Below, one piece after another: positions 2,603 through 37,395 of a stretch of DNA of 38,769 nucleotides. A program made the position numbers and the translations under genes. Each line of letters begins with the position of its first letter. Positions within the stretch are counted from its first letter, which is position 1. The stretch is from a virus. The notes under the pieces were generated by a model. That model ran no database searches. It had not been told where the DNA came from and saw only the letters and a program-made list of their open reading frames with translations. Where the stretch lies: the IMG/VR virus record IMGVR_UViG_3300032242_002394, positions 1 through 38,769 of that record; one strand, 5' to 3'.

Positions 2603-4027
2603 ATGTTCGGACTAGCCCAATCAATAATACGAGCTATTCAACCAGCTGGTTCGACGACGTTTAATTCGCCTGGTACATACACTGTACCTTACGGTGTGCG
2701 TACAATTTCAATCACTGGGGCTGGTGGTGCTGGTAATTCAGGCGGCGCTGGCAACCCAGGTAATAACGGTGCCGCTGGTGGTTCTGGTAACCCAGGTAAT
2801 GCTGGAAACTCTGGCAATCCAGGTAACAACGGTGCTGCTGGTGCCGCTGGTAACCCAGGTAATGCTGGAGGAACTGGTAACCCAGGAACTGGCGGTACTG
2901 CTGGCGGCGGTGGTAATGGTGGTGCTGGTGGCGGTGGCGGTAATGCTGGTAACCCTTCGATATGTTGTCACAATAAAGTTAAGTTTTCCGTTGCTTACAA
3001 CTTTCATTACGGAAGTCCTGGAACCACTGGTTCTCCAAATATTGGCGGTGGTTACGGTGGCGGTAATGGCGGTGGCGGAGGACCTCGCGCAGGTAACGGA
3101 GGCGCTGGTGGATCGGGCGGCGCAGGCAGCGGTGGTGGTAACGGAGGCGCTGGCAATCCTGGTACTGCTGGCGCTGCGGGTACTGCTGGTACTGGCGCAA
3201 CAGCTGGCGGCACTGGGGCGAGTGGAAATCCAGGAACAGCTGGATCAGCTGGTAGCGGCGCAGGGGCTGGCGGTACAGGTTCTGCAGGAACTGTCGGCGC
3301 GGCTGGTACAACAGGCACGCCAAGCACTTTCATAAACAATACTTATTTTTCAGTTACGTTTCCGGGCGGTAATGGAGGTACTGGTGGTAACGGTGGAACA
3401 GCTGGCAATGCAGGTAATCCAGGTAACAACGGTGCTGCTGGCACTGGCGGTACAGGCGGCGGTGGCGGCAACGCAGGGAATCCTGGCAACAACGGTGCTG
3501 CTGGCACTGGCGGGACGGCTGGTTCTGGAAACCCAGGAAACGCAGGTTCTCCGGGCGTAGGAGGTTCCGGCGGTGGCGGTGGCGGCGGTGGCGGCTGGTG
3601 TAATTGCGGTTTTTTTAATGCGGGCGGCAGTGGAACAGCTGGTGGTGGTCCGATTGGCGGTAATGCTGGAGACGGCGCTGGAACGCAATATTATTCGTCT
3701 CCATCAAACCCAGGCGGTGCTGGTGGCGGCGGAAACATAGGTTATAGCGGTAATCCAGGCACTTCAAACCCAGGTGGCGCGGGTAATCCTGGCAGCGCTG
3801 GCGCTGCAGGTACTGCTGGTACTGGTGCTACTTCTGGTAACCCAGGCAACCCAGGAACTGCAGGTTCAGCCGGAACAGCTGGCACTGGCGCTACTTCTGG
3901 CAATCCCGGTAATCCAGGCAACACGCCTTCGAATTCTACAAATTCCGCTAATACAGTTTCTCTTATTTCTTATGCTGTAACAGTTGCTCCGGGAACTTCG
4001 ATGGTTGTTTCATACGCACAACAATAA
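2603..4027 (+). CDS. Glycine-rich adhesin-like tail protein, copy 1
   Basis: A 474-residue protein. Residues about 18-40 form the leader seen in bacterial and phage glycine-rich proteins (TFNSPGTYTVPYGVRTISIT, then GAGGAGN). The body consists of GNPGNNGAAG, GTAGTGAT and poly-Gly runs. This resembles glycine-rich adhesins such as gp38 of T2/S16-type phages, where Gly-rich strands pack as polyglycine-II helices, although no homology to gp38 can be claimed from composition. Two non-repetitive islands interrupt the Gly-rich part: one with ICC and HNKVKFSVAYNF, one with WCNCGFF. They probably form exposed loops or disulfides. The C-terminus (SLISYAVTVAPGTSMVVSYA) is a beta-rich cap. The next gene is a close paralogue. 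A receptor-binding role is inferred. Confidence 0.7.
   Translation: MFGLAQSIIRAIQPAGSTTFNSPGTYTVPYGVRTISITGAGGAGNSGGAGNPGNNGAAGGSGNPGNAGNSGNPGNNGAAGAAGNPGNAGGTGNPGTGGTAGGGGNGGAGGGGGNAGNPSICCHNKVKFSVAYNFHYGSPGTTGSPNIGGGYGGGNGGGGGPRAGNGGAGGSGGAGSGGGNGGAGNPGTAGAAGTAGTGATAGGTGASGNPGTAGSAGSGAGAGGTGSAGTVGAAGTTGTPSTFINNTYFSVTFPGGNGGTGGNGGTAGNAGNPGNNGAAGTGGTGGGGGNAGNPGNNGAAGTGGTAGSGNPGNAGSPGVGGSGGGGGGGGGWCNCGFFNAGGSGTAGGGPIGGNAGDGAGTQYYSSPSNPGGAGGGGNIGYSGNPGTSNPGGAGNPGSAGAAGTAGTGATSGNPGNPGTAGSAGTAGTGATSGNPGNPGNTPSNSTNSANTVSLISYAVTVAPGTSMVVSYAQQ
2972..2997 (+). repeat. 26-bp exact repeat shared with the paralogue (other copy at 4458-4483)
   Basis: The 26 bases from AATAAAGTTA to CGTTGCTTA in this gene occur unchanged at 4458-4483 in the downstream paralogue. 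They encode the conserved NKVKFSVA island. Identity at third positions over this stretch suggests recent duplication or gene conversion between the tandem adhesin genes. Confidence 0.75.
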
Positions 4028-4040
4028 TTAGAGAGTTATA

Positions 4041-5648
4041 ATGCCTGGATCAGCTTTAGCTTTATTATTACACTCAATTCAACCAGCTGGGTCTACAACG
4101 TTCAACTCATCGGGAACATACACAGTTCCTTACGGTGTTAGAACAATTTCGATTACAGGCGCTGGCGGTGCAGGTAATCCAGGAGCGGCTGGTAACCCAG
4201 GTGCAAACGGAACAGCTGGTGCTGCTGGTACTGCAGGTAATCCAGGCAACAACGGTGCTGCTGGTGCCGCTGGAAATATCGGCGCGAAAGGAAACAACGG
4301 CAATCCAGGTAATAATGGCGCTGCTGGCGCTGCTGGCAATCCAGGAGCAGCAGGCAATTCAGGTAATCCTGGTTCTGCTGGAACTGGCGGTGGTGCTGGT
4401 AATGGCGGTGGTGGAGGCGGCGGAGGTTACGCTGCTAATCCAGGGTTGTCCTGCGCTAATAAAGTTAAGTTTTCCGTTGCTTATAACTATTATTACGGAG
4501 CTCCGGGCAACACTGGTTCCCCGAATTATGGCGGTGGTTACGGTGGTGGTTCTGGTGGCGGTGCTTCTGGTCGAGGCGGTAACGGTGGCAACGGTGGCGG
4601 TGGAGCCGGAGGTAATGGAGGCGGTGGTGGTAATCCAGGTGCTGCAGGCACTGGCGGAAACCCAGGAGCTTCCGGGACTGGCGCAACAGCTGGCGGCACT
4701 GGAGCTGCAGGTACAGCTGGGACTACAGGCGCTGCAGGCACAGGAGCAACTGCAGGAACTCCAGGAGCAGCGGGAACTGCAGGCACGGGCGCAACCGCTG
4801 GCGGCACTGGTTCTGTAGGTACAGCAGGAACTAATGGAACAGCGGGAACGCCCAGCAGTTTTATAAACAATACATATTATTCAGTTACATTCCCAGGCGG
4901 TAACGCTGGCACTGGCGGTACTGGCGGTTCGGCAGGCACAGCAGGTAATCCAGGAAATAATGGCGCTGCTGGTGCAGCCGGAACCATTGGTAATCCAGGT
5001 AATAATGGCGGCGGTGGTACTGGTGGAACAGCTGGTGCTGCTGGTACTGCAGGCAACCCAGGCAATAACGGCGGTGGCGGAACTGGCGGCACTGCTGGCG
5101 CAGGAAATCCCGGTAATGCTGGCAACCCAGGCAACGCTGGTTCCGGTGGCGGCGGAGGCGGTGGCGGCGGATGTTTATGTAACGGTTATTTCATCGCAGC
5201 TGGTAACGGAAACGGCGGTGGTGGACCAAGCGGTGGTGGTGGTGGAGCGGGTGCGGGTCAACAATATTACGCTTCTCCCGCAAACCCAGGAGGCGGCGGC
5301 GGTAACGGAAATTCTGGCAGCGGTGGGAATCCAGGTTCAGCTTCTGGCGGCGGTGGTGGTAATCCTGGCAACGCTGGCGCTGCAGGCACCGCTGGTGTCG
5401 GCGCAACGGCAGGTGGCACTGGTAACCCAGGAAATCCAGGTGCTGCTGGTACTGCGGGTACTGGTGCTACTGCAGGTAATTCAGGAGCTGCTGGCACAGC
5501 TGGCACGGGCGCAACTTCCGGAACAGCTGGTAACCCGGGAACAACGCCTTCAACTTCAACAAACTCTACGACAACAATTTCTCTTGTATCTTATGCAGTA
5601 ACGGTTGCCCCAGGAACCTCTATGGTAGTTTCTTACGCTCAACAATAA
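4041..5648 (+). CDS. Glycine-rich adhesin-like tail protein, copy 2
   Basis: A 535-residue paralogue of the upstream protein. It has the same leader (TFNSSGTYTVPYGVRTISIT), the same two Cys-containing islands (LSCANKVKFSVAYNYYYG and CLCNGYFIAAG), the same SFINNTYYSVTFPGGN island and the same C-terminal cap (SYAVTVAPGTSMVVSYAQQ). The Gly-rich segments differ in length and order, so copies diverge mainly by gain and loss of short GNPGNNGAAG-type units. The start at 4041 follows an AGAGAG site. Tandem, unequal copies of an adhesin suggest alternative or hetero-oligomeric receptor-binding tips. This is inference; no structure is known to me for this exact family. Confidence 0.7.
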   Translation: MPGSALALLLHSIQPAGSTTFNSSGTYTVPYGVRTISITGAGGAGNPGAAGNPGANGTAGAAGTAGNPGNNGAAGAAGNIGAKGNNGNPGNNGAAGAAGNPGAAGNSGNPGSAGTGGGAGNGGGGGGGGYAANPGLSCANKVKFSVAYNYYYGAPGNTGSPNYGGGYGGGSGGGASGRGGNGGNGGGGAGGNGGGGGNPGAAGTGGNPGASGTGATAGGTGAAGTAGTTGAAGTGATAGTPGAAGTAGTGATAGGTGSVGTAGTNGTAGTPSSFINNTYYSVTFPGGNAGTGGTGGSAGTAGNPGNNGAAGAAGTIGNPGNNGGGGTGGTAGAAGTAGNPGNNGGGGTGGTAGAGNPGNAGNPGNAGSGGGGGGGGGCLCNGYFIAAGNGNGGGGPSGGGGGAGAGQQYYASPANPGGGGGNGNSGSGGNPGSASGGGGGNPGNAGAAGTAGVGATAGGTGNPGNPGAAGTAGTGATAGNSGAAGTAGTGATSGTAGNPGTTPSTSTNSTTTISLVSYAVTVAPGTSMVVSYAQQ

Positions 5649-5661
5649 TGAAAGGTTAGTT

Positions 5662-6354
5662 ATGTTTTTTGGTGATGATAAGATAAAGTTTTTATGCGAT
5701 CCTTCTTTGGTTGATGTTATACCTCATCCTTACCCCGCCCGTAAATATATGCCTGACTGGTATAAAAAACTAGCAATGCATACAACTGATGGGGATGGTA
5801 TGGAAATACCAACTTTGAAAAGGTGTCCGCCATTCCTTGACGCGATGGCATCTGGTTGGATTATACCATTAGCAGGGGATGTTGTTTTCAAAGTTGTTGA
5901 TGATGGGGCTGGCGTTAGTTGGAAAACTGATTTCGCTCCGGGGTTGGTAAGTCATCATAATATGAAACAAATATCGACACACCCGAATGTACCAACTGTT
6001 CCGATAAAAGTGTTGAATCACTGGATTATTCAAACCCCGCCAGGTTGGTCTTGTATGTTCGTTCCGCCTTTGAATAGAACAGATGATGTATTTGATTTGA
6101 TGAGCGGTGTCGTCGAAACAGATAAATTTTGGGAGCACGTAAATTTTCCTGGGTTTTTGAAAATAAAAGAAGGAACATTTACCGTTCGTCAAGGTCATCC
6201 TTTGATGCAGGTTATACCATACAAAAGAGGGTTCAAAAAAGAAGCTACGGTTCGCGCACTAAATAATAAAGAATTAGAAAAAGTTAAGCTTCACAGAGCC
6301 AGACACTCAGCTAACTTCAGTCAGTACAGAAACAATATGTGGGAAAAAAAGTAA
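5662..6354 (+). CDS. DUF6065-like protein of unknown function
   Basis: A 230-residue soluble protein. The N-terminal pattern (KIKFLCDPSL, then PYPARKYMPDWYKKL, then LKRCPPFLDAM) is typical of a family seen in cyanophages and other marine T4-like phages that I believe is DUF6065. Other conserved-looking parts are GWIIPLAGD, HPNVPTVPIKVLNHWIIQTP and VRQGHPLMQVIPYKR. Its function is unknown. It opens a run of accessory genes between the adhesins and the neck genes and ends directly before the next ATG (6355), so it is translationally coupled to the PP-loop gene. The family name is from memory and should be confirmed with a profile search. Confidence 0.6.
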   Translation: MFFGDDKIKFLCDPSLVDVIPHPYPARKYMPDWYKKLAMHTTDGDGMEIPTLKRCPPFLDAMASGWIIPLAGDVVFKVVDDGAGVSWKTDFAPGLVSHHNMKQISTHPNVPTVPIKVLNHWIIQTPPGWSCMFVPPLNRTDDVFDLMSGVVETDKFWEHVNFPGFLKIKEGTFTVRQGHPLMQVIPYKRGFKKEATVRALNNKELEKVKLHRARHSANFSQYRNNMWEKK

Positions 6355-7101
6355 ATGACAACGGTTATATCAGTATCAGGCGGTATCAACAGCGCATACC
6401 TTTTATGGAATGCTGCGAAAAACAGCAACGATGATATTGTTGCTGTTCATTTTGATATCAAAAGTTACGCTATGAGCGATAGGAACGAATATCATAATTA
6501 CCCAAAAGCAAATACTTCTGCTGCTAATAGCGTTGTTACTTGGGTTAGTGAAAACATTAGACCCGTTACCTACCATTATTTGACATTGGCTGAATACACT
6601 CCTAAGTACGGCGTTTTGGGTTTCCTAGAAACTGCAAACTATAGTTTGTCTATTGCTAATGTAAGTTCGGTTGTGCTTTCCGACGGTTTGGAAAGTTCAG
6701 ACGATAATTCAGTAAAAATAAGATCAGCTGTTACTCAAATAGCTAACAATGTTTTTTTCCCGTTGATTCAACAAAATTTATCTACAGCCGATTGTATAGA
6801 CGCTTTGCCAGCAACCCTACTCAATATTTGCCATAAAAATCAATATTACAAAGGTATTATGGCAATGAAAGCCGCCAACAATACCAACCAGCAAATATTG
6901 ACTGAAATTCATAACATTATCGGTAACGGACCAACTCCATATCAGAAAACTTTGAGTAACGATTACTATGTTGATAGTAAAAACAACTCGAAGAAATTTT
7001 TAGATAACAAGCACTTTTGCGATTCGAGCGAATATTTCGGTTCAATAACGTTTGAGTACCCAATACAATATCTTGCACCTCATGTAAAAATTATCAGATA
7101 A
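6355..7101 (+). CDS. Degenerate PP-loop ATPase-like protein (QueC-like paralogue without zinc site)
   Basis: A 248-residue protein starting MTTVISVSGGINSAYLLW, a PP-loop of the N-type ATP pyrophosphatase superfamily, followed by IVAVHFD. The usual SGGxDS motif reads SGGINS, with Asn in place of Asp. It resembles the protein at 8525-9385 (compare DALPATLLNICH with TSLPSDLLNMVSLC) but lacks that protein's CxxCxxC cluster, keeping only isolated Cys. It may therefore bind a nucleotide without the standard adenylation chemistry, or act on another substrate. The gene begins immediately after the stop of the DUF6065-like gene and is followed by an oxygenase gene. The superfamily call is fairly safe; the function is unknown. 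Confidence 0.6.
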   Translation: MTTVISVSGGINSAYLLWNAAKNSNDDIVAVHFDIKSYAMSDRNEYHNYPKANTSAANSVVTWVSENIRPVTYHYLTLAEYTPKYGVLGFLETANYSLSIANVSSVVLSDGLESSDDNSVKIRSAVTQIANNVFFPLIQQNLSTADCIDALPATLLNICHKNQYYKGIMAMKAANNTNQQILTEIHNIIGNGPTPYQKTLSNDYYVDSKNNSKKFLDNKHFCDSSEYFGSITFEYPIQYLAPHVKIIR

Positions 7102-7115
7102 AAAGGCGATACATT

Positions 7116-7652
7116 ATGATTTCTGAACCGTTGTATTGGATGTGGAAAAACGAACTACCGCCCAACCTCTGTAAAACTATAATTGAAGAGGGTTTGAAAC
7201 TACAAGTAGAAGAAGCAAGCGTTGGTGACGAAGGAAGGGTTGATAAAGAGATTAGAGAGTCAGCTGTTTCTTGGTTCGATAATAATTCTTGGGTTTCTGG
7301 TTTGATTGCTCATTACGCTTATACAGCAAACAAACAAGCTTGGAATTTTTCTTTGACTGGTAATCAAAACCCTCAGTTCACCGTTTATAACGAAGGCGGG
7401 TTTTACAACTTTCATGAAGACTGTTCGCTTTTGTCTGATCAGATGAGAAAACTAAGTGCTGTGATTGTAATTGCCGACCCCAACGATTATGAAGGCGGCG
7501 ATTTTGAATTTGAAGATGGCACTCGCCCAGACATAAAAGGTCAAGGTTCTATCCTCGTTTTCCCTTCATTCATCAAACATAGAGTTACGCCTGTAACGAG
7601 CGGAACGCGATATTCATTGGTTTCTTGGTTCGTTGGTCCAGCGTTTTCATGA
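7116..7652 (+). CDS. 2-oxoglutarate/Fe(II)-dependent oxygenase (prolyl 4-hydroxylase-like)
   Basis: A 178-residue double-stranded beta-helix oxygenase. The iron ligands are visible as HxD at H100/D102 (YNFHEDCS) and a distal H155 (FIKHRVTPV), with R165 (GTRYSLVSW) placed to bind 2-oxoglutarate. The intervening RKLSAVIVI and YEGGDFEF are typical of the prolyl-4-hydroxylase-like phage oxygenases common in cyanophages. The substrate cannot be read from sequence; tail or adhesin proteins, host proteins or small molecules are possible. The stop overlaps the start of the next gene (ATGA), so the two are translationally coupled. Confidence 0.8.
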   Translation: MISEPLYWMWKNELPPNLCKTIIEEGLKLQVEEASVGDEGRVDKEIRESAVSWFDNNSWVSGLIAHYAYTANKQAWNFSLTGNQNPQFTVYNEGGFYNFHEDCSLLSDQMRKLSAVIVIADPNDYEGGDFEFEDGTRPDIKGQGSILVFPSFIKHRVTPVTSGTRYSLVSWFVGPAFS

Positions 7653-8506
7653 AGAAAATATTACTGTTTTTATTTCTCTCGCTCGCGAGTGCGCATGCTG
7701 ATGAATTGAAAATTGTTACGACTAGCGGTGGCGTTGCGGTAAATGCTAGGTTAGTTGGTAAGTATATCAACAAATATTTGCCTAATACGCCAGCAGTGAT
7801 TGTTCAGCAAATGCCAGGCGCTGGAGGTTTATCCAGCGCAAATTATTTGTTCAATGTTGCTAAAAAAGACGGTAGTGAAATAGGAACAATCAATAAGTTA
7901 GTTTTACAACAGCGCAACAACGAAAACGCTAGGTTCAAACTAAACGAATTCAACTGGCTCGGCTCTTCGTCTGATGGTAGAGAAGATAGTATTGTACTTT
8001 GGACTAATACAGACAAAAAAGATAATTTGATTATTGGCGTTGAGGGTTCTGGAGAAGGTAATCCTATCCTATTAGCTTCGAAAGTATTGAACCTGAATAT
8101 CAAAATAATAAATGGTTACGCTGATTCGAATGCAGTCAAAATGGCTCTACAACGTGGAGAAATAGACGGCGCTGTGTACAATTATATGGGCGTGAGAACG
8201 ACGAACCCAGAGTGGTTGACTGGAAATAAAATACGTCCGATGTTTCAGTTTGGTCACGCCCTAAAAGATGTTCCTTCGATAGACATTGAGGAACTAGGGC
8301 AGATGAATATAGAGTCAACAATGTCAAGGTTGTTTGCTTTACCCCCAGGTGTCCCACTCGATAGAGTTGAAATTATGAAGAAAGCTTTTGATCAAACAGT
8401 GCATGATCAAGGGTATATTGATGAAGCTGAAAAATTAGGAATCGACGTAAAATTTATAGATTCAAAAGAGGTAAATGCTCTTATTGATAAATATTTAAAA
8501 TTCTAG
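7649..8506 (+). CDS. Secreted TctC/BUG-family solute-binding protein
   Basis: The start is the ATG at 7649, which overlaps the upstream stop (ATGA). An upstream TTG at 7625 is inside the previous gene and would spoil the signal peptide. The 285-residue product begins MKKILLFLFLSLASAHA followed by DELKIV, a classic Sec signal peptide with an AHA cleavage site. The mature part has family marks of tripartite tricarboxylate transporter receptors (TctC/BUG): QMPGAGGLSSANYL, then KKDGSEIGTI, VPSIDIEELGQ and LPPGVPLDRVEIMKKAF. These proteins bind carboxylates in the periplasm and feed TctA/TctB membrane partners. No such partners are in this window. The protein may load a host transporter or have been repurposed. 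Carriage by a T4-like phage is unusual. Confidence 0.8.
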   Translation: MKKILLFLFLSLASAHADELKIVTTSGGVAVNARLVGKYINKYLPNTPAVIVQQMPGAGGLSSANYLFNVAKKDGSEIGTINKLVLQQRNNENARFKLNEFNWLGSSSDGREDSIVLWTNTDKKDNLIIGVEGSGEGNPILLASKVLNLNIKIINGYADSNAVKMALQRGEIDGAVYNYMGVRTTNPEWLTGNKIRPMFQFGHALKDVPSIDIEELGQMNIESTMSRLFALPPGVPLDRVEIMKKAFDQTVHDQGYIDEAEKLGIDVKFIDSKEVNALIDKYLKF

Positions 8507-8524: not shown

Positions 8525-9385
8525 ATGAAAACACTTATAGCAGTAACGGGTGGAGTTGATAGCACCTACGTGCTTTGGAAATACCTTTCAACCACTCAAG
8601 ACGAAGTTACAGCTATTCACTTTGACACGGAATACGTCGATCAAAGAACATATAGAATCAGAAATATGTGGCGTCCAAAGGCATCAGTAATTCAAAAAAA
8701 GAGTTTGAACGATATTGTTCCTTGGTTACAACAGAATGTTCGTTCTTTCGAATACGTTGAACATGTAACCGATCCATCAAAATTTTCTTCTATGACAATC
8801 TGGCCAGAGTATATGGGCGCGTATGCTGTAGAACATATCAACAACGGAACATACGACAATTTTGTTACAGGTCATTGCAAAGCGAACGAGGGCTACGGTG
8901 CTGGTAGTTCTGCTGCAGGCGTAGTGAAACAAGGTCACTATGTGATGTGGGAACAGTTCAAAGCCGACGCAACAAGAGGTCAAATCACCTTCCCGTTGTT
9001 TGACGTTCCTTACGATAGGTCCGTTGCGTTGACTTCTTTGCCGTCAGACCTATTGAACATGGTTTCTTTGTGCGACGATCAGCTTTGGAATCACGATACA
9101 AATTCTTTAGAGGATTGCGGTCATTGCACTAAGTGTGCTTTGAAGTATTTTTACAACGGTCAAATTGCTTCTGGTAAAACATCAGATCAAATTATGACAT
9201 ACGTAAACGAGTTGAGCGCAGGACCAAACGGTTCTTATATCCCACAAAAATATTGGTTGCAAGCTCAAGTTGCAAACACTGAAACGTATTTCGTTGTGCC
9301 TCCAAGAAATTTTGTCGAAAACGATGATATTACTCAACCTTGGCCACAGCCAATTTGGCCAAGCAGTTATAAAGTAGGTCAATAA
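8525..9385 (+). CDS. QueC-like PP-loop ATPase with four-cysteine zinc motif
   Basis: A 286-residue protein. The PP-loop is TGGVDS (residues 8-13) followed by VTAIHFD, as in ATP pyrophosphatases. Four cysteines at 183, 198, 201 and 204 (SLC, then DCGHCTKCALK) match the zinc-binding arrangement of 7-cyano-7-deazaguanine synthase (QueC). QueC makes preQ0 from carboxy-deazaguanine with ATP and ammonia. Some phages use this pathway to put deazaguanines in DNA, but no QueD, QueE, FolE or DpdA-like gene is visible here. It could therefore use host intermediates or modify something else. The C-terminal 80 residues are not QueC-like to my eye. The stop overlaps the gp13 start (TAATG). Confidence 0.65.
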   Translation: MKTLIAVTGGVDSTYVLWKYLSTTQDEVTAIHFDTEYVDQRTYRIRNMWRPKASVIQKKSLNDIVPWLQQNVRSFEYVEHVTDPSKFSSMTIWPEYMGAYAVEHINNGTYDNFVTGHCKANEGYGAGSSAAGVVKQGHYVMWEQFKADATRGQITFPLFDVPYDRSVALTSLPSDLLNMVSLCDDQLWNHDTNSLEDCGHCTKCALKYFYNGQIASGKTSDQIMTYVNELSAGPNGSYIPQKYWLQAQVANTETYFVVPPRNFVENDDITQPWPQPIWPSSYKVGQ

Positions 9386-10122
9386 TGTCAGTACCAAGAA
9401 CAAGGCAGCAGTTCAAAGATTATTGTTTACGTAAGCTCGGCGCTCCCGTAATCGAAATCAACGTTGACGATGATCAGGTGGATGATCGCGTTGATGAAGC
9501 CATTCGTTATTTCTGGGACTATCATTTTGACGGCGCTGAGAAAATTTATTACAAGTATCAGGTAACGCCTAATGATATTCAAAACAAATTTATTCCAGTG
9601 CCAGACAATATCATCGGCGTTGTGAATTTGTTTCCTATCGGTCAGGCGTTGAATACAAACAACCTATTCAATATCCGTTATCAGATAGCTTTGAACGACC
9701 TTTATACGCTAACGTCTGTTTCTATGGTTCCATTTTATATGGCGCTGCAGCATATTCAGTTTCTAGAAGAAATGTTGGTAGGTAAACAGCCTCTACGTTA
9801 CAACCGTATGATCGGCAAGCTTTACATCGACATGGACTGGAACATCGTAAACGTTGGCGATTTTATTATCGCTGAAGCATATCAGGTTGTTGACCCAGAC
9901 GTATACACAAAAGCTTTTGGCGAACGTTTGTTACAGAATCACGCTACAGCTTTGATCAAACGTCAGTGGGGTAACAACCTGAAGAAGTTCAATGGTATGC
10001 AGCTACCAGGCGGTCTTACATTCAACGGTCAGCAGATATACAATGAAGCCGAACAGGAAATCAAAGAAATAGAAAAGATGATTGCTGACAGTAGCCTACC
10101 AGCTACAGATATGATCGGGTAA
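9385..10122 (+). CDS. gp13: Neck protein gp13
   Basis: A 245-residue protein (T4 gp13 is about 309). The N-terminus (RQQFKDYCLRKLGAPVIEIN, then VDDRVDEAIRYFWDYHFDG) is the hallmark of gp13 in marine T4-like phages, and the FIPVPDNIIGVVNLFPIG segment follows. gp13 and gp14 form the neck that closes the filled head and accepts the tail. It is the first gene of the conserved block gp13-gp14-gp15-gp16-gp17. Its ATG overlaps the stop of the upstream PP-loop gene, so this accessory island is translationally linked to the structural operon. Confidence 0.85.
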   Translation: MSVPRTRQQFKDYCLRKLGAPVIEINVDDDQVDDRVDEAIRYFWDYHFDGAEKIYYKYQVTPNDIQNKFIPVPDNIIGVVNLFPIGQALNTNNLFNIRYQIALNDLYTLTSVSMVPFYMALQHIQFLEEMLVGKQPLRYNRMIGKLYIDMDWNIVNVGDFIIAEAYQVVDPDVYTKAFGERLLQNHATALIKRQWGNNLKKFNGMQLPGGLTFNGQQIYNEAEQEIKEIEKMIADSSLPATDMIG

Positions 10123-29855: not shown

Positions 29856-30503
29856 ATGGAATACAGCTGGCAAAATTTTTCTGACATAGGCTACGTACAC
29901 ACAAAGTTTACCGATCAAGAGTTAGCTCCTCTAAAAGAAGAAATAAAGTTTATCGAGAATAATTTTGAAACTTCTGAATCTTTTACTGGAGGGCTAGCTG
30001 GTCATTTGCGTAAAGAATACCTTTTGTCTAAGTGTAAAGATTACTTAGAAAATTTGATTTTGCCGCTGGTTGTAGCGCACGAAACAGAATATCCTAACTA
30101 TAAATCAGAAGTCAAAAGGGTTATTTCCGCTGACACGAACTATCAATTGAGTAAACTGTGGGTCAACTTTCAAAAGAAAAACGAGTTCAACCCCATACAT
30201 ACTCATTCCGGAGTTTATAGTTTTGTTATTTGGATAAAAATACCTTACGACCTAAAAGAGGAACTAAATTTATTCCCTCAATTTGAAGAAAACGGTAAAC
30301 TATCTGAAAACAAAACTTCTTGTTTCGAATTTCTATATTTGAACAGTTTGGGTAAAATTTCTCAACACACCCTTCAGGTCGATAAAAATTACGAAAACGT
30401 TTGCGTTTTGTTTCCAGCTAATATGCCTCACCAAGTGTACCCATTTTTTACAAGCGACGAATACAGAATAAGCGTATCTGGAAATTTTTCTCTCAAGGTA
30501 TAA
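29856..30503 (+). CDS. Putative 2-oxoglutarate/Fe(II) oxygenase between gp47 and gp46
   Basis: A 215-residue protein. The segment LWVNFQKKNEFNPIHTHSG, then VYSFVIWIKIPY, resembles the H-x-H containing core of a phage oxygenase family (the putative 2OG-Fe(II) oxygenase family TIGR02466). Candidate ligands are H115/H117, distal H192 (ANMPHQVYPF) and R204 (DEYRISVSG) for 2-oxoglutarate. The usual HxD is not obvious, so the metal site may be unusual or inactive. It is placed between the two subunit genes of the Mre11-Rad50-like complex, 3 bp after gp47 and 1 bp before gp46, so it is made together with them. The substrate is unknown. Confidence 0.6.
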   Translation: MEYSWQNFSDIGYVHTKFTDQELAPLKEEIKFIENNFETSESFTGGLAGHLRKEYLLSKCKDYLENLILPLVVAHETEYPNYKSEVKRVISADTNYQLSKLWVNFQKKNEFNPIHTHSGVYSFVIWIKIPYDLKEELNLFPQFEENGKLSENKTSCFEFLYLNSLGKISQHTLQVDKNYENVCVLFPANMPHQVYPFFTSDEYRISVSGNFSLKV

Positions 30504-30504
30504 T

Positions 30505-32211
30505 ATGATATTTTTCAAAAAGCTTAGATGGAAAAACCTGTTATCTACAGGTAACGTGTTCACTGAAGTTGATCTAGCTAAATCAAACAACACGCTGATC
30601 GTGGGCGAGAACGGGGCAGGTAAGTCAACGATTCTCGACGCATTGGCGTTTTCTTTGTTTGGCAAACCGTTCCGTAAAATCAACAAACCTCAGCTTATGA
30701 ACACGATAACGAAAAAAGATCTCGTTGTCGAAGTTGAGTTTAGTATTTCTAGTAACGAGTATAAAATTGTTCGCGGTATAAAGCCAACGTTGTTTGAAGT
30801 TTACCAAAACGGTAAGCTACTCAATCAATCTGCCGAAATGAAAGATTATCAGGAAATACTTGAAAAGCAAATTTTGAAGTTCAACTTCAAATCGTTCTGT
30901 CAAGTTGTTGTCCTTGGTTCGGCTTCTTTCGTGCCGTTCATGCAACTTTCTTCAAGTCAGCGTAGAGAAATTATTGAAGATCTTCTTGACCTTCAAATTT
31001 TTACGACGATGAATTTGTTGTTGAAAGATAAAATGCAATTCAACAACGGAGACCTTGCTGACATCGCTACAGATCAAAAAGTGGTGATGGAAAAGATAAA
31101 AATCATCAAGCAGCATCTTCAAGAAAAACAAAACAACAACGAAAAACTTGTCGCCGAAAAGATAGACCTTATTGAAGATACAGATAAAAAAATAACTGAC
31201 CTGACGGCGTTATACCGTATTATTGCTGACGAAATCGAGGCTCTTCAAAAAGCTATCGAAGATCAGCCTAAAATAAGCAAAAAAGTCAATCAGCTTTCGC
31301 AGCTGCGTCATAAGATAGAAGCTAAACGCGCAGTGATTGATAAGGACATTAAGTTTTTCGAAAAACACGAAAACTGTCCAACTTGCACGCAGATTATCAG
31401 CTCTGATTTTCGTGAAAAAACAGTTTTCAATAAAAATAATGAAATTGAAAACATTGATACTGCACTCGAAGATCTCGTAAAGCAATACGAAGAAGCTAAC
31501 TCAAGCCTCGAAAATATGATGAAAATTCAGGGCGAGATAAACGATAAAAGAATCAAGCAAACGGTTCAATCATCTAATATCAAATCTCTCGCAAATTATC
31601 GTAATCAGCTCGAAAAAGAAATCAATCAGATCAATAGGGTTCAAGAGGCTGACGAAGAAGATAAAATGTCAGAGCTTGAAACTGAGTTGAATGCTGTCGC
31701 CGTGAGGTATAATGACGCTATGGACAAAAAGCAGATTTATACCGCTGCTGCTACGTTGCTAAAAGATGGCGGTATCAAAGCGAAAATTATCAAACAGTAT
31801 GTCCCTGTTATCAACAAGCTTATTGGTAAGTACCTAAGTGCTATGGACTTTTTCGTACAGTTCGAACTTGATGAAGAGTTCAACGAAACTATCAAGTCTC
31901 GTTTTAGAGATGAGTTTAGTTATGCTTCGTTTTCCGAAGGCGAAAAGATGCGAATCAATCTTGCTATTTTGTTCACATGGCGTGCTGTAGCTAAGTTGCG
32001 TAACTCTGTAAGTACCAACCTTCTTATCCTAGACGAAATCATGGACTCTTCGATGGATTCTAACGGTACAGACGAGTTTTTGAAGATACTAAACAACTTG
32101 ACTTCTGACACCAATACGTTTATCATTAGTCATAAGACTGATCAGATGTATGACAAATTTGCGAACGTAATCAAGTTTGAGAAACATAAAAACTTCAGTA
32201 GGATTGCATAA
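30505..32211 (+). CDS. gp46: Recombination endonuclease subunit gp46 (Rad50-like ATPase)
   Basis: A 568-residue SMC-type ATPase (T4 gp46 is 560). It has Walker A GENGAGKST (34-42), a coiled coil with the zinc-hook motif CPTC (291-294), the ABC signature SFSEGEK (475-481) and Walker B LLILDEIMD (506-514). It pairs with gp47 to resect DNA ends and is required for recombination-dependent replication. Its stop overlaps the start of the next oxygenase gene (TAATG). Confidence 0.95.
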   Translation: MIFFKKLRWKNLLSTGNVFTEVDLAKSNNTLIVGENGAGKSTILDALAFSLFGKPFRKINKPQLMNTITKKDLVVEVEFSISSNEYKIVRGIKPTLFEVYQNGKLLNQSAEMKDYQEILEKQILKFNFKSFCQVVVLGSASFVPFMQLSSSQRREIIEDLLDLQIFTTMNLLLKDKMQFNNGDLADIATDQKVVMEKIKIIKQHLQEKQNNNEKLVAEKIDLIEDTDKKITDLTALYRIIADEIEALQKAIEDQPKISKKVNQLSQLRHKIEAKRAVIDKDIKFFEKHENCPTCTQIISSDFREKTVFNKNNEIENIDTALEDLVKQYEEANSSLENMMKIQGEINDKRIKQTVQSSNIKSLANYRNQLEKEINQINRVQEADEEDKMSELETELNAVAVRYNDAMDKKQIYTAAATLLKDGGIKAKIIKQYVPVINKLIGKYLSAMDFFVQFELDEEFNETIKSRFRDEFSYASFSEGEKMRINLAILFTWRAVAKLRNSVSTNLLILDEIMDSSMDSNGTDEFLKILNNLTSDTNTFIISHKTDQMYDKFANVIKFEKHKNFSRIA

Positions 32212-32792
32212 TGTTCGAGACAGTAGTATTCGATAACCTGATCACTGAAAAGGATCAGGTTCATCTACATGATATGATTATGTATCATTCTCAATGGAAA
32301 TTCCTAAAGGACGTAAGCGGTAACGAAAATCAACCTTATCCTTCTTATGGGTTTGTTCATGTCATAAATCATCCAGAAAAAGAAAGTACATTTGATTCTG
32401 AAATGCGTTACGCCATTCACAATATGTTCAAAGATAAATTCGATAAATTTGTTCCTGAATATAAACAAATTTACTACAACCGTATTTTCCTCCAGCTCCC
32501 TCTAGCCCCGCAGTTTAAAAAGGAACACAATGGAGTACATGTCGATCTTCCTCCTCATATCCCTCATGTTGCTTGTGTTTATTACTGTAATGATTCTGAT
32601 GGAGACACTATCATCTATGAGCAGACAATTAATGATACTCCAGGAGGGTCTCAAAACGTACAACTCAAAGAACACAAGAGGGTTACACCGAAACGTGGCA
32701 GAGCAGTATTTTTTGATGGCTCTCGATATCATTGCAGCAGTCAGCCTAGTAGGAATTACCGTGCCATTATTAACTTTGATTTAACGGTGTAA
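32211..32792 (+). CDS. 2-oxoglutarate/Fe(II)-dependent oxygenase
   Basis: A 193-residue oxygenase with a clear metal site: H110 and D112 (GVHVDLPPH), distal H174 (SRYHCSS) and R184 (NYRAIINFD) for 2-oxoglutarate. The segments HVACVYYCNDSDGDTIIYE and PKRGRAVFFDG are typical of small phage oxygenases of this fold. Its ATG overlaps the gp46 stop by one base, so it is translationally coupled to recombination genes. The substrate is unknown; hydroxylation of a protein or of a base are both possible. Confidence 0.75.
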   Translation: MFETVVFDNLITEKDQVHLHDMIMYHSQWKFLKDVSGNENQPYPSYGFVHVINHPEKESTFDSEMRYAIHNMFKDKFDKFVPEYKQIYYNRIFLQLPLAPQFKKEHNGVHVDLPPHIPHVACVYYCNDSDGDTIIYEQTINDTPGGSQNVQLKEHKRVTPKRGRAVFFDGSRYHCSSQPSRNYRAIINFDLTV

Positions 32793-32794
32793 AT

Positions 32795-33337
32795 ATGCAA
32801 CTTGTAAAAACAGACGACCCTATCCTAACAACAAAAATCGAAAATTTCGATTTCAGTAACCCTCCGACAGACCCCTACGAGCTCGCGCAGGATTTGGTAA
32901 AATTCATGTACGATAACAACGGTATTGGTCTAGCGGCTAATCAGTTGGGGTTGCCTTACCGAGCTTTTGCTATGCGAGGGCATCCTCAAAATTTTGTTTG
33001 TTTTAATCCGCGTGTTGTACAACCGAGCGAACAGCAAGTGATACTTGAAGAAGGGTGCTTGACTTACCCCGGATTATTAGTTAAGATAAAAAGACCTCAG
33101 CACGTGAGGGTTCGTTTTACTATGGCTAACGGGGAAACTCGAACAGATACGTTTACCGGAATGACAGCTCGTATTTTTCAGCACGAGCTAGATCACCTTG
33201 ACGGTATAAAGTTTTTTGACAGAGCGAACCGTTATCATAAAGAACAAGCTTTGAAAAAGTGGAAGCGTGGAGACGTTTCTACTATGAGAGTTAAAACAAA
33301 TACCGGAGATTACAGTGAACATCTTTTACGTGGATGA
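32795..33337 (+). CDS. def: Peptide deformylase
   Basis: A 180-residue protein with all three deformylase motifs: GIGLAANQ (43-50), EGCLT (86-90, metal ligand C88) and HELDH (130-134). It removes the formyl group from nascent protein N-termini. Phage deformylases are known from cyanophages and other marine T4-like phages, where they may favour synthesis of particular proteins during infection. The usual EGCLS reads EGCLT, as in some phage versions. It overlaps the next gene by 23 bp. Confidence 0.93.
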   Translation: MQLVKTDDPILTTKIENFDFSNPPTDPYELAQDLVKFMYDNNGIGLAANQLGLPYRAFAMRGHPQNFVCFNPRVVQPSEQQVILEEGCLTYPGLLVKIKRPQHVRVRFTMANGETRTDTFTGMTARIFQHELDHLDGIKFFDRANRYHKEQALKKWKRGDVSTMRVKTNTGDYSEHLLRG

Positions 33338-34463: not shown

Positions 34464-34495
34464 TATTTGCATATATAACGTTGTGATGTTTTTTT

Positions 34496-34502
34496 GAGGA
34501 GG
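34496..34502 (+). promoter_or_regulatory. Strong Shine-Dalgarno site deciding the TET/JBP-like start
   Basis: GAGGAGG lies 6 bp before the ATG at 34509. It shows that the ATG, not the overlapping TTG at 34494, is the start. The 45-bp gap in front of this gene is one of the few gaps in this part of the genome and contains an AT-rich stretch (TATATAAC, 34472-34479), but no convincing -35 is visible. Confidence 0.75.
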
Positions 34503-34508
34503 TCAGCT

Positions 34509-35813
34509 ATGATTGAAGTTCTAATTCGAAAAAAGATAAATTCAGAAGAAACTCTCGGTACATTCATCAGTAATGAATATTACGATCGTGTCATCGAGTC
34601 TGATTGCGACTTGTACGCAATGGATCCCCTTGATCCATCGTTGATGGGCGAAAACAATATTATTTTCAAGTACCGTAAAAACGTATTCACCAAAGAAGAG
34701 CAGGATTCTGCTTACGCTGGTCTTCGAGCTGCTGCCACGGAATCTCAAAACCGTGGTTTGGCGGCTGGACCTCGTGGCGATCAGCTTGGTCAGGAAGGTC
34801 GTGGTAATCGCGACTGGGTGACTGCAGAACAAGAAGACGTTATTTCTTTCTTGAAAAGACCGTTCAATACTATTGAAGACGGCACAACGCTTGAATCAAT
34901 CATTGCTATGAGCGATTCTTCCAACAAAGAAGAAACTCGTGGTAGAGTTTGGTTACGTTCTGAGGTAGTAAAAGTTTACCCTGAATATCACGGCTGGTTT
35001 GATCAGTGGTTGAATAGGGTAAAGGTTCTCGCCCGCGAAGAACAAATTAAAGAAGCACATAAGATTGACGATTTTATTTCTGAAACCAACTATGCTCAGT
35101 CGGTTATGTCTGGTATTGCTGGATACTTTGATCGTTATCCTCGTATCCCATATGGTCGTGAAACTTCGTACACCGAAAAGAACCGCGAAAAGTTTTCGCT
35201 TTGTTACCCTTACCTTCACAAGCTGAACTCTCAGTTTCGAGAACTAATCCCTGGTAGATGGAATGCTCAAAATGCCCAAGCAAATAAACTTGATAGCAGG
35301 TTCCGCATCGATGGTACTGTCTTCACTACTCTTACTGTTAACCATAACTGGCGCACTGCCTGTCACCGCGACGCTGGCGATCTCACTACTGGTTTCAGCA
35401 ATATTTGTGGTGTTACTGGTCCTGATGGAAAGGGATGGCGTGGCGGTCAATTTATTCTTCCTGAGTACAGGATCGCTATTAATCTTCAGCCAGGGGATAT
35501 GTTACTTGTTAACAATCATGAGGGTATTCACGGCAATGATGCACTGATTGGCGACGACAACGACCGTATGACAATCGTTGCTTACTTCCGCGACAAGATG
35601 GTTGACCTTCAATCATGGGATTATGAGCAGCTTCGTAAAAAATATATTTTCGAGCGTCACCTGAATAAAGATCATAAGTATTACCGCCCGCAGTGGAACG
35701 GTGTTTCTCCCAATATGTGGGAAGAGCAAGAATGGTATGACTATATGAAAGCTCATAATATTTCCGACCCTTACAAAAAAGAACAAGCTGCAGATTTGAG
35801 TGACTTTTTATAA
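34509..35813 (+). CDS. TET/JBP-like DNA base dioxygenase (putative)
   Basis: A 434-residue protein. The C-terminal half is a 2-oxoglutarate/Fe(II) oxygenase domain: LTVNHNWRTACHRDAGD with H286 and D288, then GGQFILPEYRIAINLQPGDM, distal H341 (or H337) in NNHEGIHGN, and R353 in NDRMTIVAYF. The HxD followed by GD and the LPEYRIAINLQPGD strand match the pattern of TET/JBP enzymes, which oxidise the methyl of 5-methylcytosine or thymine in DNA. The first 200 residues are not recognised, though a Gly/Arg-rich part (GLAAGPRGDQLGQEGRGN) and helices may bind DNA. Its stop overlaps the next start (TAATG). A generic prolyl-hydroxylase-like enzyme is the alternative; the gene neighbourhood favours DNA. 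Confidence 0.65.
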   Translation: MIEVLIRKKINSEETLGTFISNEYYDRVIESDCDLYAMDPLDPSLMGENNIIFKYRKNVFTKEEQDSAYAGLRAAATESQNRGLAAGPRGDQLGQEGRGNRDWVTAEQEDVISFLKRPFNTIEDGTTLESIIAMSDSSNKEETRGRVWLRSEVVKVYPEYHGWFDQWLNRVKVLAREEQIKEAHKIDDFISETNYAQSVMSGIAGYFDRYPRIPYGRETSYTEKNREKFSLCYPYLHKLNSQFRELIPGRWNAQNAQANKLDSRFRIDGTVFTTLTVNHNWRTACHRDAGDLTTGFSNICGVTGPDGKGWRGGQFILPEYRIAINLQPGDMLLVNNHEGIHGNDALIGDDNDRMTIVAYFRDKMVDLQSWDYEQLRKKYIFERHLNKDHKYYRPQWNGVSPNMWEEQEWYDYMKAHNISDPYKKEQAADLSDFL

Positions 35814-36850
35814 TGATCATACCTAATGATAAAGGCGGAGACTGGCGTGCGCGTAAGTTCGTTGAATATGCGAACTTTGTGCCGCCAGTTCATCAGGCGT
35901 TTCTTCTTGAATATGCTAAACGTAGGAAACTAACTGAAGATCAGTGTATTTTCCTAGCGTTCATTATGGGTAACGTTTATTCAGAACTGACGTCAATTTT
36001 TATCCTCGAAGAGTGGGATTACAAAGTTCCGAACCTCGTAACAGTCAATGAATTTTTAACCGAATGGAACCCGAAAATTATTTACGGTACAGCCCGTAAG
36101 TGGACAAGGTACGGCGGTAGAGCTTGGTCAACATTCAATTGGTTCGTTGAGCAAACGGAAGGCGATGTAGGTGCTTGGTTCAAAACCATCGCTACAGGTA
36201 ATACAGAACGGGAAGTTTATGACAACGTTATAGCTGGTGCCCTCAAGTGCCCAGGCTATGGACGTTTTTCAACAGACCTATTCAATGAGATATTGATGTT
36301 ATTCAGCAAATCAGGTATGATTAGTGTTAAGTTGAGGTCTGATGAAAGCATCAACTTCTATCACGGCGCTAATTTGACTTCTGGTTTGTTCAACATATGT
36401 TATATGGATGAACGTGCTGATAAATTTGACCGTGATAATATTCTTAGCGATGAAGAAGCAGAGTTCCTAACTCAAAAGTTACTTTGGGTCAAATCAATCT
36501 ACGAAGAAATGTATCCGGGAAAAGAAATTGACGTACCTTTATTCGTTACAAAGGTGTGTAGTTTCCGTAACTGTTTCAAGGGTAAAAGAGGCGGCGGGTA
36601 TCATCACTACCGTCAACTGAAATATTTGCGTGAGTTTGAGTTGTTAGCCCCAGAAAAACAAAAGCTATGGGACGAGTGTTATGATATACGTCAGACAGTT
36701 TATCCTTCTATTTTGCGTGGCGAAAATCACGGCATTGAAGGTATACCGCCTGAAATTTCAAAGTGGTGGATAAATCATGGTTGGGTTGGTTGTGAGCCAG
36801 AAGCTTTGGCTTCTATTAGAAAAGTGACAATAGAAAGGTTTTTTGAATGA
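35813..36850 (+). CDS. aGPT-pyrophosphorylase / amino acid:DNA transferase-like protein (putative)
   Basis: A 345-residue, mostly helical protein. It resembles the alpha-glutamyl/putrescinyl thymine pyrophosphorylase group, DNA-glycosylase-fold enzymes proposed to replace an activated pyrophosphate on a hydroxymethyl base in DNA with an amine or amino acid. Supporting segments are VYSELTSIFILEEWD, KCPGYGRFSTDLFNEILM and the C-terminal signature KVCSFRNCFKGKRGGGYHHY (248-267), where these proteins usually carry a C-x-F-R followed by an aromatic/basic helix. It is sandwiched between a TET/JBP-like oxidase and a P-loop kinase, the expected partners. Family membership is from pattern recognition and context and needs a profile search. 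Confidence 0.55.
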   Translation: MIIPNDKGGDWRARKFVEYANFVPPVHQAFLLEYAKRRKLTEDQCIFLAFIMGNVYSELTSIFILEEWDYKVPNLVTVNEFLTEWNPKIIYGTARKWTRYGGRAWSTFNWFVEQTEGDVGAWFKTIATGNTEREVYDNVIAGALKCPGYGRFSTDLFNEILMLFSKSGMISVKLRSDESINFYHGANLTSGLFNICYMDERADKFDRDNILSDEEAEFLTQKLLWVKSIYEEMYPGKEIDVPLFVTKVCSFRNCFKGKRGGGYHHYRQLKYLREFELLAPEKQKLWDECYDIRQTVYPSILRGENHGIEGIPPEISKWWINHGWVGCEPEALASIRKVTIERFFE

Positions 36851-37395
36851 AGGTAATTGCTATCGGCGGTAATCCAGGCAGCGGTAAAACAACGCTGATG
36901 AAAATGCTTATTGATTGGTTGAAGGTCGAACCAAAGTACGATGCGTATAAGTTGGTGCCTTACCTTCAAAAGAACAACATTTATATTCTAGGCAAGTATG
37001 AAGAAGGCGAAACGTTCGCTGGTACTGACCGTATGTCTATGGCGGTACAACCAGAGGCTATTAAATTTTTAGCTTGCCTTCCAAGTAATTCTGTAGTATT
37101 ATATGAGGGTGATAGATTATTCACTTCCTCGTTTTTAGAGGATTGCGCTGAAAAATACGAACTTGAGATCATTCACCTATCGACAACTTCTGACGTCAGG
37201 GAAGAACGATACAAAGAACGTGGCAGCAATCAAAACGCTACTTGGCTAGCTGGTCGTGAAAGTAAAATCAATAACATTCTGTCAAATTTAACTTTGTTAT
37301 TTCACGTTCAAAGTTTCCCCAATAACAATAAGCAAGAACAACTCGCAGTTTTCGATAAAATTATGGAGATAATTAATGACGGCGTTTCCGTGTGA
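36847..37395 (+). CDS. P-loop kinase, candidate hydroxymethyl-base DNA kinase
   Basis: A 182-residue P-loop kinase with Walker A GGNPGSGKTT (7-16), a Walker B-like VVLYEGDRLF, and an Arg-rich lid (SDVREERYKERGS). Small P-loop kinases of this kind accompany aGPT-type proteins in phages and include the 5-hydroxymethyluridine DNA kinase of hypermodified phages. It would phosphorylate the hydroxymethyl group made by the oxidase. The segment ETFAGTDRMSMAVQPEAIKF may recognise the substrate. The start overlaps the upstream stop (ATGA) and the end overlaps the next gene by 20 bp. A nucleoside monophosphate kinase role is the alternative. Confidence 0.65.
   Translation: MKVIAIGGNPGSGKTTLMKMLIDWLKVEPKYDAYKLVPYLQKNNIYILGKYEEGETFAGTDRMSMAVQPEAIKFLACLPSNSVVLYEGDRLFTSSFLEDCAEKYELEIIHLSTTSDVREERYKERGSNQNATWLAGRESKINNILSNLTLLFHVQSFPNNNKQEQLAVFDKIMEIINDGVSV

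Follow-up and report, generated by a model that had tools for sequence, protein, structure and literature searches.

Why would a virus with T4-like genes carry, in the midst of its structural genes, a gene for an exported solute receptor, and what could such a receptor do during infection? The question is raised by a reading frame of a 38,769-base virus record, analysed here over its whole length and called the window, whose neck, terminase, sheath and replication genes are T4-like. The initial annotation described the product as a phage-encoded periplasmic receptor of the TctC/BUG type, which serves tripartite tricarboxylate transporters (TTT). Its gene does lie in the structural region, as had been stated, between collagen-like/fibre-like genes and the neck gene gp13 (Table 1). 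The ATG at 7649 is preferred as start codon over TTG at 7625, which would give a longer frame, because it marks the beginning of the signal peptide and forms a 4-nt ATGA overlap with the stop, at 7652, of the 2OG-Fe(II) oxygenase gene directly upstream; the reported coupling to an oxygenase is thereby recovered. The Sec signal claimed earlier (AHA then DEL) is likewise seen, on heuristic grounds: the N-terminus, MKKILLFLFLSLASAHA followed by DEL, has an n-region rich in Lys, then a hydrophobic core whose mean Kyte-Doolittle value over 10 residues is 3.0, and ends in AHA, a cleavage-type site; equivalent Sec-type features are found by heuristic in 17/17 phage BUG proteins.

Table 1. Features of the receptor locus in the window and of the PP-loop family encoded in related contigs
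Feature	Position	Strand	Evidence and remarks
DUF6065 protein, PHROG 7084	5662..6354	+	Pfam, PHROG; upstream end of cassette
PP-loop ATPase-like protein 1, SGGINS motif	6355..7101	+	Pfam ATP_bind_3 E 0.001, under cutoff
2OG-Fe(II) oxygenase (2OG-FeII_Oxy_3, PF13640; PHROG 61)	7116..7652	+	Pfam E 5e-13, 50.3 bits, cutoff 27; PHROG E 3.9e-40
BUG/TctC-type solute-binding protein (BUGa)	7649..8506	+	285 aa; AlphaFold2, Foldseek, 16 phage homologues
Sec-type signal peptide, 17 aa, AHA/DE site	7649..7699	+	heuristic
First pincer (ligand) loop TTSGGVAVNAR	7718..7750	+	retains GG but not the hallmark Asp; Asn32 invariant in phage clade
Second pincer loop GVEGSGEGN	8036..8062	+	Glu132 invariant in phage clade
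PP-loop protein 2, QueC-like, CGHCTKC Cys cluster	8525..9385	+	PHROG 1550 E 8.6e-5; motif read from sequence
gp13-like neck / head-tail adaptor	9385..10122	+	PHROG 211 E 6.5e-40; right flank of cassette
PP-loop ATPase family members	L027:340-1542, L027:2857-4068, L004:96-1136 and others		alignment A4

Searches with single sequences place the protein loosely. Pfam TctC matches the window BUG alone at 13.7 bits (E 0.046), under the cutoff of 27, against which the other phage BUGa siblings score 23.6-24.9 bits or give no match; a PDB sequence search reaches Bug27 weakly, at E 0.54, and neither a single-sequence viral scan nor tblastn against GenBank phages returned a homologue. Weak Pfam matches to other families (Prolactin_RP, GAPDH and similar) were dismissed as chance, and Padloc assigned no defence family to the protein. 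The AlphaFold2 model (pLDDT 80.7) shows the two-domain BUG/TctC fold. In a Foldseek search of the PDB, its first 16 matches are all BUG/TctC, with E values of 7.6e-13 to 1.5e-8 and TM (query) of 0.59-0.70, and include TBP (8hk9, E 7.6e-13), TphC, TctC (4x9t), BugD, Bug27, MatC and AdpC; none of these 16 is the match to a non-BUG family that the initial annotation had named as a counter-argument. Homology is also shown transitively, since bacterial proteins above the TctC cutoff match the phage BUG profile at about E 1e-65 to 1e-71 (G001:C43, for example, scores 40.5 bits with TctC and E 1.3e-71 with the phage profile). Judged from the model and the profiles, the window protein is a true but divergent homologue of the TTT receptors, and its description as an exported, phage-encoded TctC/BUG-type protein is borne out by fold, profile, tree and signal features.

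Homologues in other phages were reached via TerL relatives of the window, which were then searched for the window proteins. Eight of these relatives encode a full-length or near-full-length BUG (35-38% identity, E about 1e-56 to 1e-61), and a profile scan of viral contigs yielded 16 BUGa loci (35-40% identity), all on T4-like contigs and most of them beside the neck gene 13, so that related phages carrying the gene, for which the initial annotation had proposed to look, do exist. This recurrence at the same site in independent contigs, together with a flat GC content (about 36-42% over 5.6-14 kb of the window), rules out the chimeric assembly join that had been considered. In a quick maximum-likelihood tree, drawn from the 17 distinct phage BUGa proteins of alignment A2 (the window's included) and bacterial receptors, as had also been suggested, 17/17 phage proteins group together (SH-aLRT 99), and the group falls within an alphaproteobacterial BUG clade, with a sister-group support of 96. 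Matches to the phage profile, down to E 1e-74, occur in 9/289 genomes sampled from the class to which the Rhodospirillaceae MAG belongs, and several of the matching proteins exceed the TctC cutoff. The bacterial gene is directly beside TctA in G467:C192 and G558:C40 and near it in G561:C67, while TctA is absent from the contigs of the bacterial sisters G001:C80, G503:C26 and G406:C8. G001, the Rhodospirillaceae MAG of L097, has 77 TctC-like matches in ~3 Mb, an extreme expansion of TTT receptors. On the viral side, TctA was found neither in the window, where the earlier statement that no transporter membrane genes are nearby thus stands, nor in five relatives (G003-G007, a 167,756-base record included).

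The window TerL is nearest to those of Sinorhizobium phages (57%); together with the alphaproteobacterial donor clade of the BUG gene, this makes an alphaproteobacterial host no more than a guess. Between close phage BUG pairs, dN/dS is 0.06-0.14, and by this measure the phage clade is under purifying selection. Compared with L083/L085/L092, the window shows 90-91% identity in TerL and about 92% in gp13 but only 36% in BUG, which indicates that the cassette is exchanged faster than its neighbours.

The ligand site was compared in the two pincer loops. The TTT signature loop P-F-X-A-G-G-X-X-D, almost ubiquitous though not absolute, coordinates the ligand carboxylate (PMC5812351), which it helps to clamp via two waters (PMC5812351, PMC8556258). 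The window BUG retains only the GG of this signature, and Asp at the aligned signature position is found in 0/17 phage BUGs versus 32/41 bacterial relatives. At the positions of the invariant Asn32 and Glu132 of the phages, bacteria mostly have Tyr and Thr/Ser, respectively. The alignment points to pocket loops that were rebuilt in the phages and then conserved. The family motifs cited in the initial annotation fare unevenly in this light, as PGAGG and LPPGVP are common to the clade while the signature loop itself is degenerate. Because the signature Asp is lost in 17/17 proteins and the second pincer loop carries an invariant Glu, carboxylate binding cannot be assumed, and the earlier proposal that the protein boosts carboxylate uptake is weakened.

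In the window, the oxygenase-BUG pair is flanked on both sides by PP-loop ATPase-like genes, the downstream one matching Pfam QueC at E 0.015, under cutoff. Two long Gly-rich collagen-like proteins, probably fibre proteins, are encoded directly upstream of the cassette, at 2603-4027 (Pfam Collagen E 0.001, under cutoff) and 4041-5648. Further along, 2OG-Fe(II) oxygenase-like genes recur at 29856-30503 and 32211-32792 (the latter just under the Pfam cutoff), a phage peptide deformylase is present at 32795-33337 (Pfam E 1.6e-39), and three consecutive genes at 34494-37395, for a Tet/JBP-type oxygenase (Pfam E 5.1e-19), a protein of 345 aa and a kinase of the P-loop nucleotide type (E 1.2e-11), look like a DNA base hypermodification cluster. 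Counting the Tet/JBP type, the window holds at least four 2OG-Fe(II) oxygenase-like genes.

The pairing with an oxygenase recurs in the relatives. In 15/15 relatives whose contig continues past BUG, the next gene, at -8 to +7 nt, encodes a 2OG-Fe(II) oxygenase (2OG-FeII_Oxy_5 or _3), and a second 2OG gene usually comes after it; L017/L090 was left out of this count, as its contig breaks off within BUG. The BUG start lies next to gp13, on the opposite strand, in most relatives and a few genes away in a small number of them. Gene order is inverted in the window, where the oxygenase precedes BUG, and the window oxygenase groups with a non-island enzyme of L068 (support 98; long branches), so the BUG-2OG pairing may have arisen at least twice. 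Since the relatives owe their coupling to common inheritance of one arrangement, only about two independent pairings can be counted. In L088, L090, L091 and L086 (contigs of L013, L017, L027 and L023), the stretch separating gp13 from BUG contains a TATAAATA late-type element on the strand of BUG; it precedes the BUG operon in 4/16 relatives, all four from a single lineage, hinting at late expression of the operon there.

The islands of the relatives also hold, further along, a second phage BUG family, BUGb (L027:1526-2431, L027:4077-5006, L096:13975-14901 and others; alignment A3), which matches TctC at up to 49 bits, above cutoff, and a PDB TTT receptor at E 2.8e-12. BUGb proteins have two conserved cysteines near the C-terminus, and up to two copies occur per island. 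Their genes are coupled, by an overlap or a few nt, to those of PP-loop ATPases about 400 aa long that share a YSGGSDS motif (about 350-400 aa and SGGSDS across alignment A4). Scanned members of this family match nothing in Pfam or PHROG, and GenBank phages hold no match either; nor do the seven genomes searched for a bacterial source, a negative that says little by itself. A carbapenam-synthetase-like reading of this family was too weak to keep (Foldseek E 1.2e-3, TM 0.32), GMP/NAD synthetases and LarE being about equally close. Among islands that extend 4 kb or more ahead of gp13, PP-loop genes are present in 12/13 BUG-positive and 0/18 BUG-negative islands (Fisher p 9e-8), and 2OG genes in 13/13 and 3/18 (p 3e-6), p values that overstate independence since the contigs are related. 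The family of alignment A4 is itself tied to the BUG-positive islands.

These observations lead us to favour, tentatively and at somewhat less than even confidence, a reading in which the phage has domesticated an exported orphan BUG/TTT receptor that feeds a re-specialised ligand, via a host permease, to the coupled enzymes. During infection, the BUG protein would be secreted to the periplasm, where its pocket, re-specialised away from the usual carboxylate-clamping loop, would capture a small molecule and hand it to a host TctAB-type permease on which it is presumed to dock. In the cytoplasm, the translationally coupled oxygenase and the flanking PP-loop enzymes, of adenylating/amidating type, could then work on the imported molecule. 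The orphan-receptor reading draws on the fold, on the single nested phage clade and on the bacterial members of the wider clade beside TctA, and equally on the conserved BUG-2OG coupling, the BUGb-PP-loop coupling, the co-occurrence of PP-loop genes and the low dN/dS. It also has bacterial precedent, as orphan BUGs without adjacent TctAB and BUGs beside an enzyme using the substrate are both known (PMC5812351). Against it, the lost Asp and the fixed Glu mean that the protein may have given up both carboxylate binding and productive docking; TctA is absent from the phage records searched, the independent BUG-2OG pairings are only about two and 2OG genes are frequent in these phages; and the window cassette runs in the direction of the late structural genes, later than expected for nutrient uptake. 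A broader version is possible, though doubtful: a "capture-and-tailor" island, in which two phage-specific BUG families, each with a translationally coupled enzyme of its own (2OG oxygenases for BUGa, the new PP-loop ATPase family for BUGb), would import a non-standard ligand via a host permease and convert it, e.g., into a group that modifies surface molecules of the phage or the host.

The Sec-type export features would also suit a role in conflict between phages. A secreted BUG could act in periplasmic superinfection exclusion or as a decoy, binding a factor of the incoming phage or masking a host receptor or permease, and its replacement at a much faster pace than its neighbours is as expected for a gene in such conflict. 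This reading is nevertheless unlikely, for it leaves the tight coupling to metabolic-type enzyme genes unexplained, and invariant N32/E132 with low dN/dS speak for a ligand that has stayed the same, not for an arms race. Quite unlikely, too, is a classical auxiliary metabolic gene, i.e., a carboxylate receptor raising host TTT uptake for energy or for 2-oxoglutarate supply. The coupled oxygenase belongs to a class that consumes 2-oxoglutarate, itself a dicarboxylate, which would fit such a role, but this compound is already plentiful in cells. Carboxylates are also the usual ligands of BUG family proteins (PMC5812351), yet none of the 17 phage proteins keeps the clamping-loop signature, and their second pincer loop has a fixed Glu.

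The remaining alternatives turn on genomic position. With collagen-like/fibre genes on one side, the neck gene on the other and the orientation of the structural genes in the window, and with the late-type element ahead of the BUG operon in the one lineage of relatives, the cassette might be a virion-associated or tail-fibre-maturation one, its oxygenase and PP-loop enzymes modifying collagen-like fibres or surface glycans and BUG serving as a structural or periplasmic accessory. We consider this improbable: a Sec signal is unexpected on a virion part assembled in the cytoplasm, and neither the model nor the Foldseek matches reveal a fibre-like or anchor domain in the BUG protein. The site is also hypervariable, BUG being absent from 18/31 comparable islands, as would suit passenger cargo with no role in infection; such a role-less passenger is highly improbable given the dN/dS of close pairs, the monophyly and the conserved coupling.

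Taken together, a phage-specific clade, a rebuilt ligand loop, tailoring-type enzymes and fast swapping suggest that infecting phages import one particular small molecule. Cassettes of this kind recur in related viruses near the same position, which suggests that these viruses capture a small molecule and process it chemically. The locus also draws attention to a family of PP-loop ATPases whose tested members have no match in Pfam, PHROG or isolate phages. No paper describing phage TctC/BUG receptors was found in the open-licence literature, in which one paper reports a tctA domain match on SUP05 viral contigs (PMC4164917); automatic database names aside, phage-encoded TTT receptors appear to be undescribed in the literature searched.

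The closest named entries are BFVD proteins of uncultured Caudovirales phages, automatically annotated as "PBP2_Bug_TTT domain containing protein" (A0A6J5T247, A0A6J5M1T7 and others), on which no paper was found; their fold matches that of the window BUG (E 1.1e-10) with just 13-15% identity in structural alignment. With the TTT BUG/TctC proteins (Bug27, BugD, TphC, the terephthalate-binding TBP, AdpC, MatC), the window BUG shares the fold, the export-signal features and the clade-wide PGAG..AN, DG and PPGVP elements. It differs from the solved structures by an identity of about 15%, a degenerate P-F-X-A-G-G-X-X-D loop and a shortened stretch (residues about 119 to 128), as well as by being phage-encoded and coupled to a 2OG oxygenase gene. 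Another precedent is the PstS encoded by cyanophages and soil phages, where the phage contributes just the periplasmic binding component and the host the rest of the importer. The likeness would be one of concept only, PstS belonging to an ABC-type phosphate system and the present receptor to the TTT type; phage P-acquisition genes are the subject of PMC10987575. Like the orphan BUGs of Bordetella and other proteobacteria, the phage BUG has no adjacent TctAB; unlike them, it belongs to a monophyletic phage clade located in a phage enzyme island.
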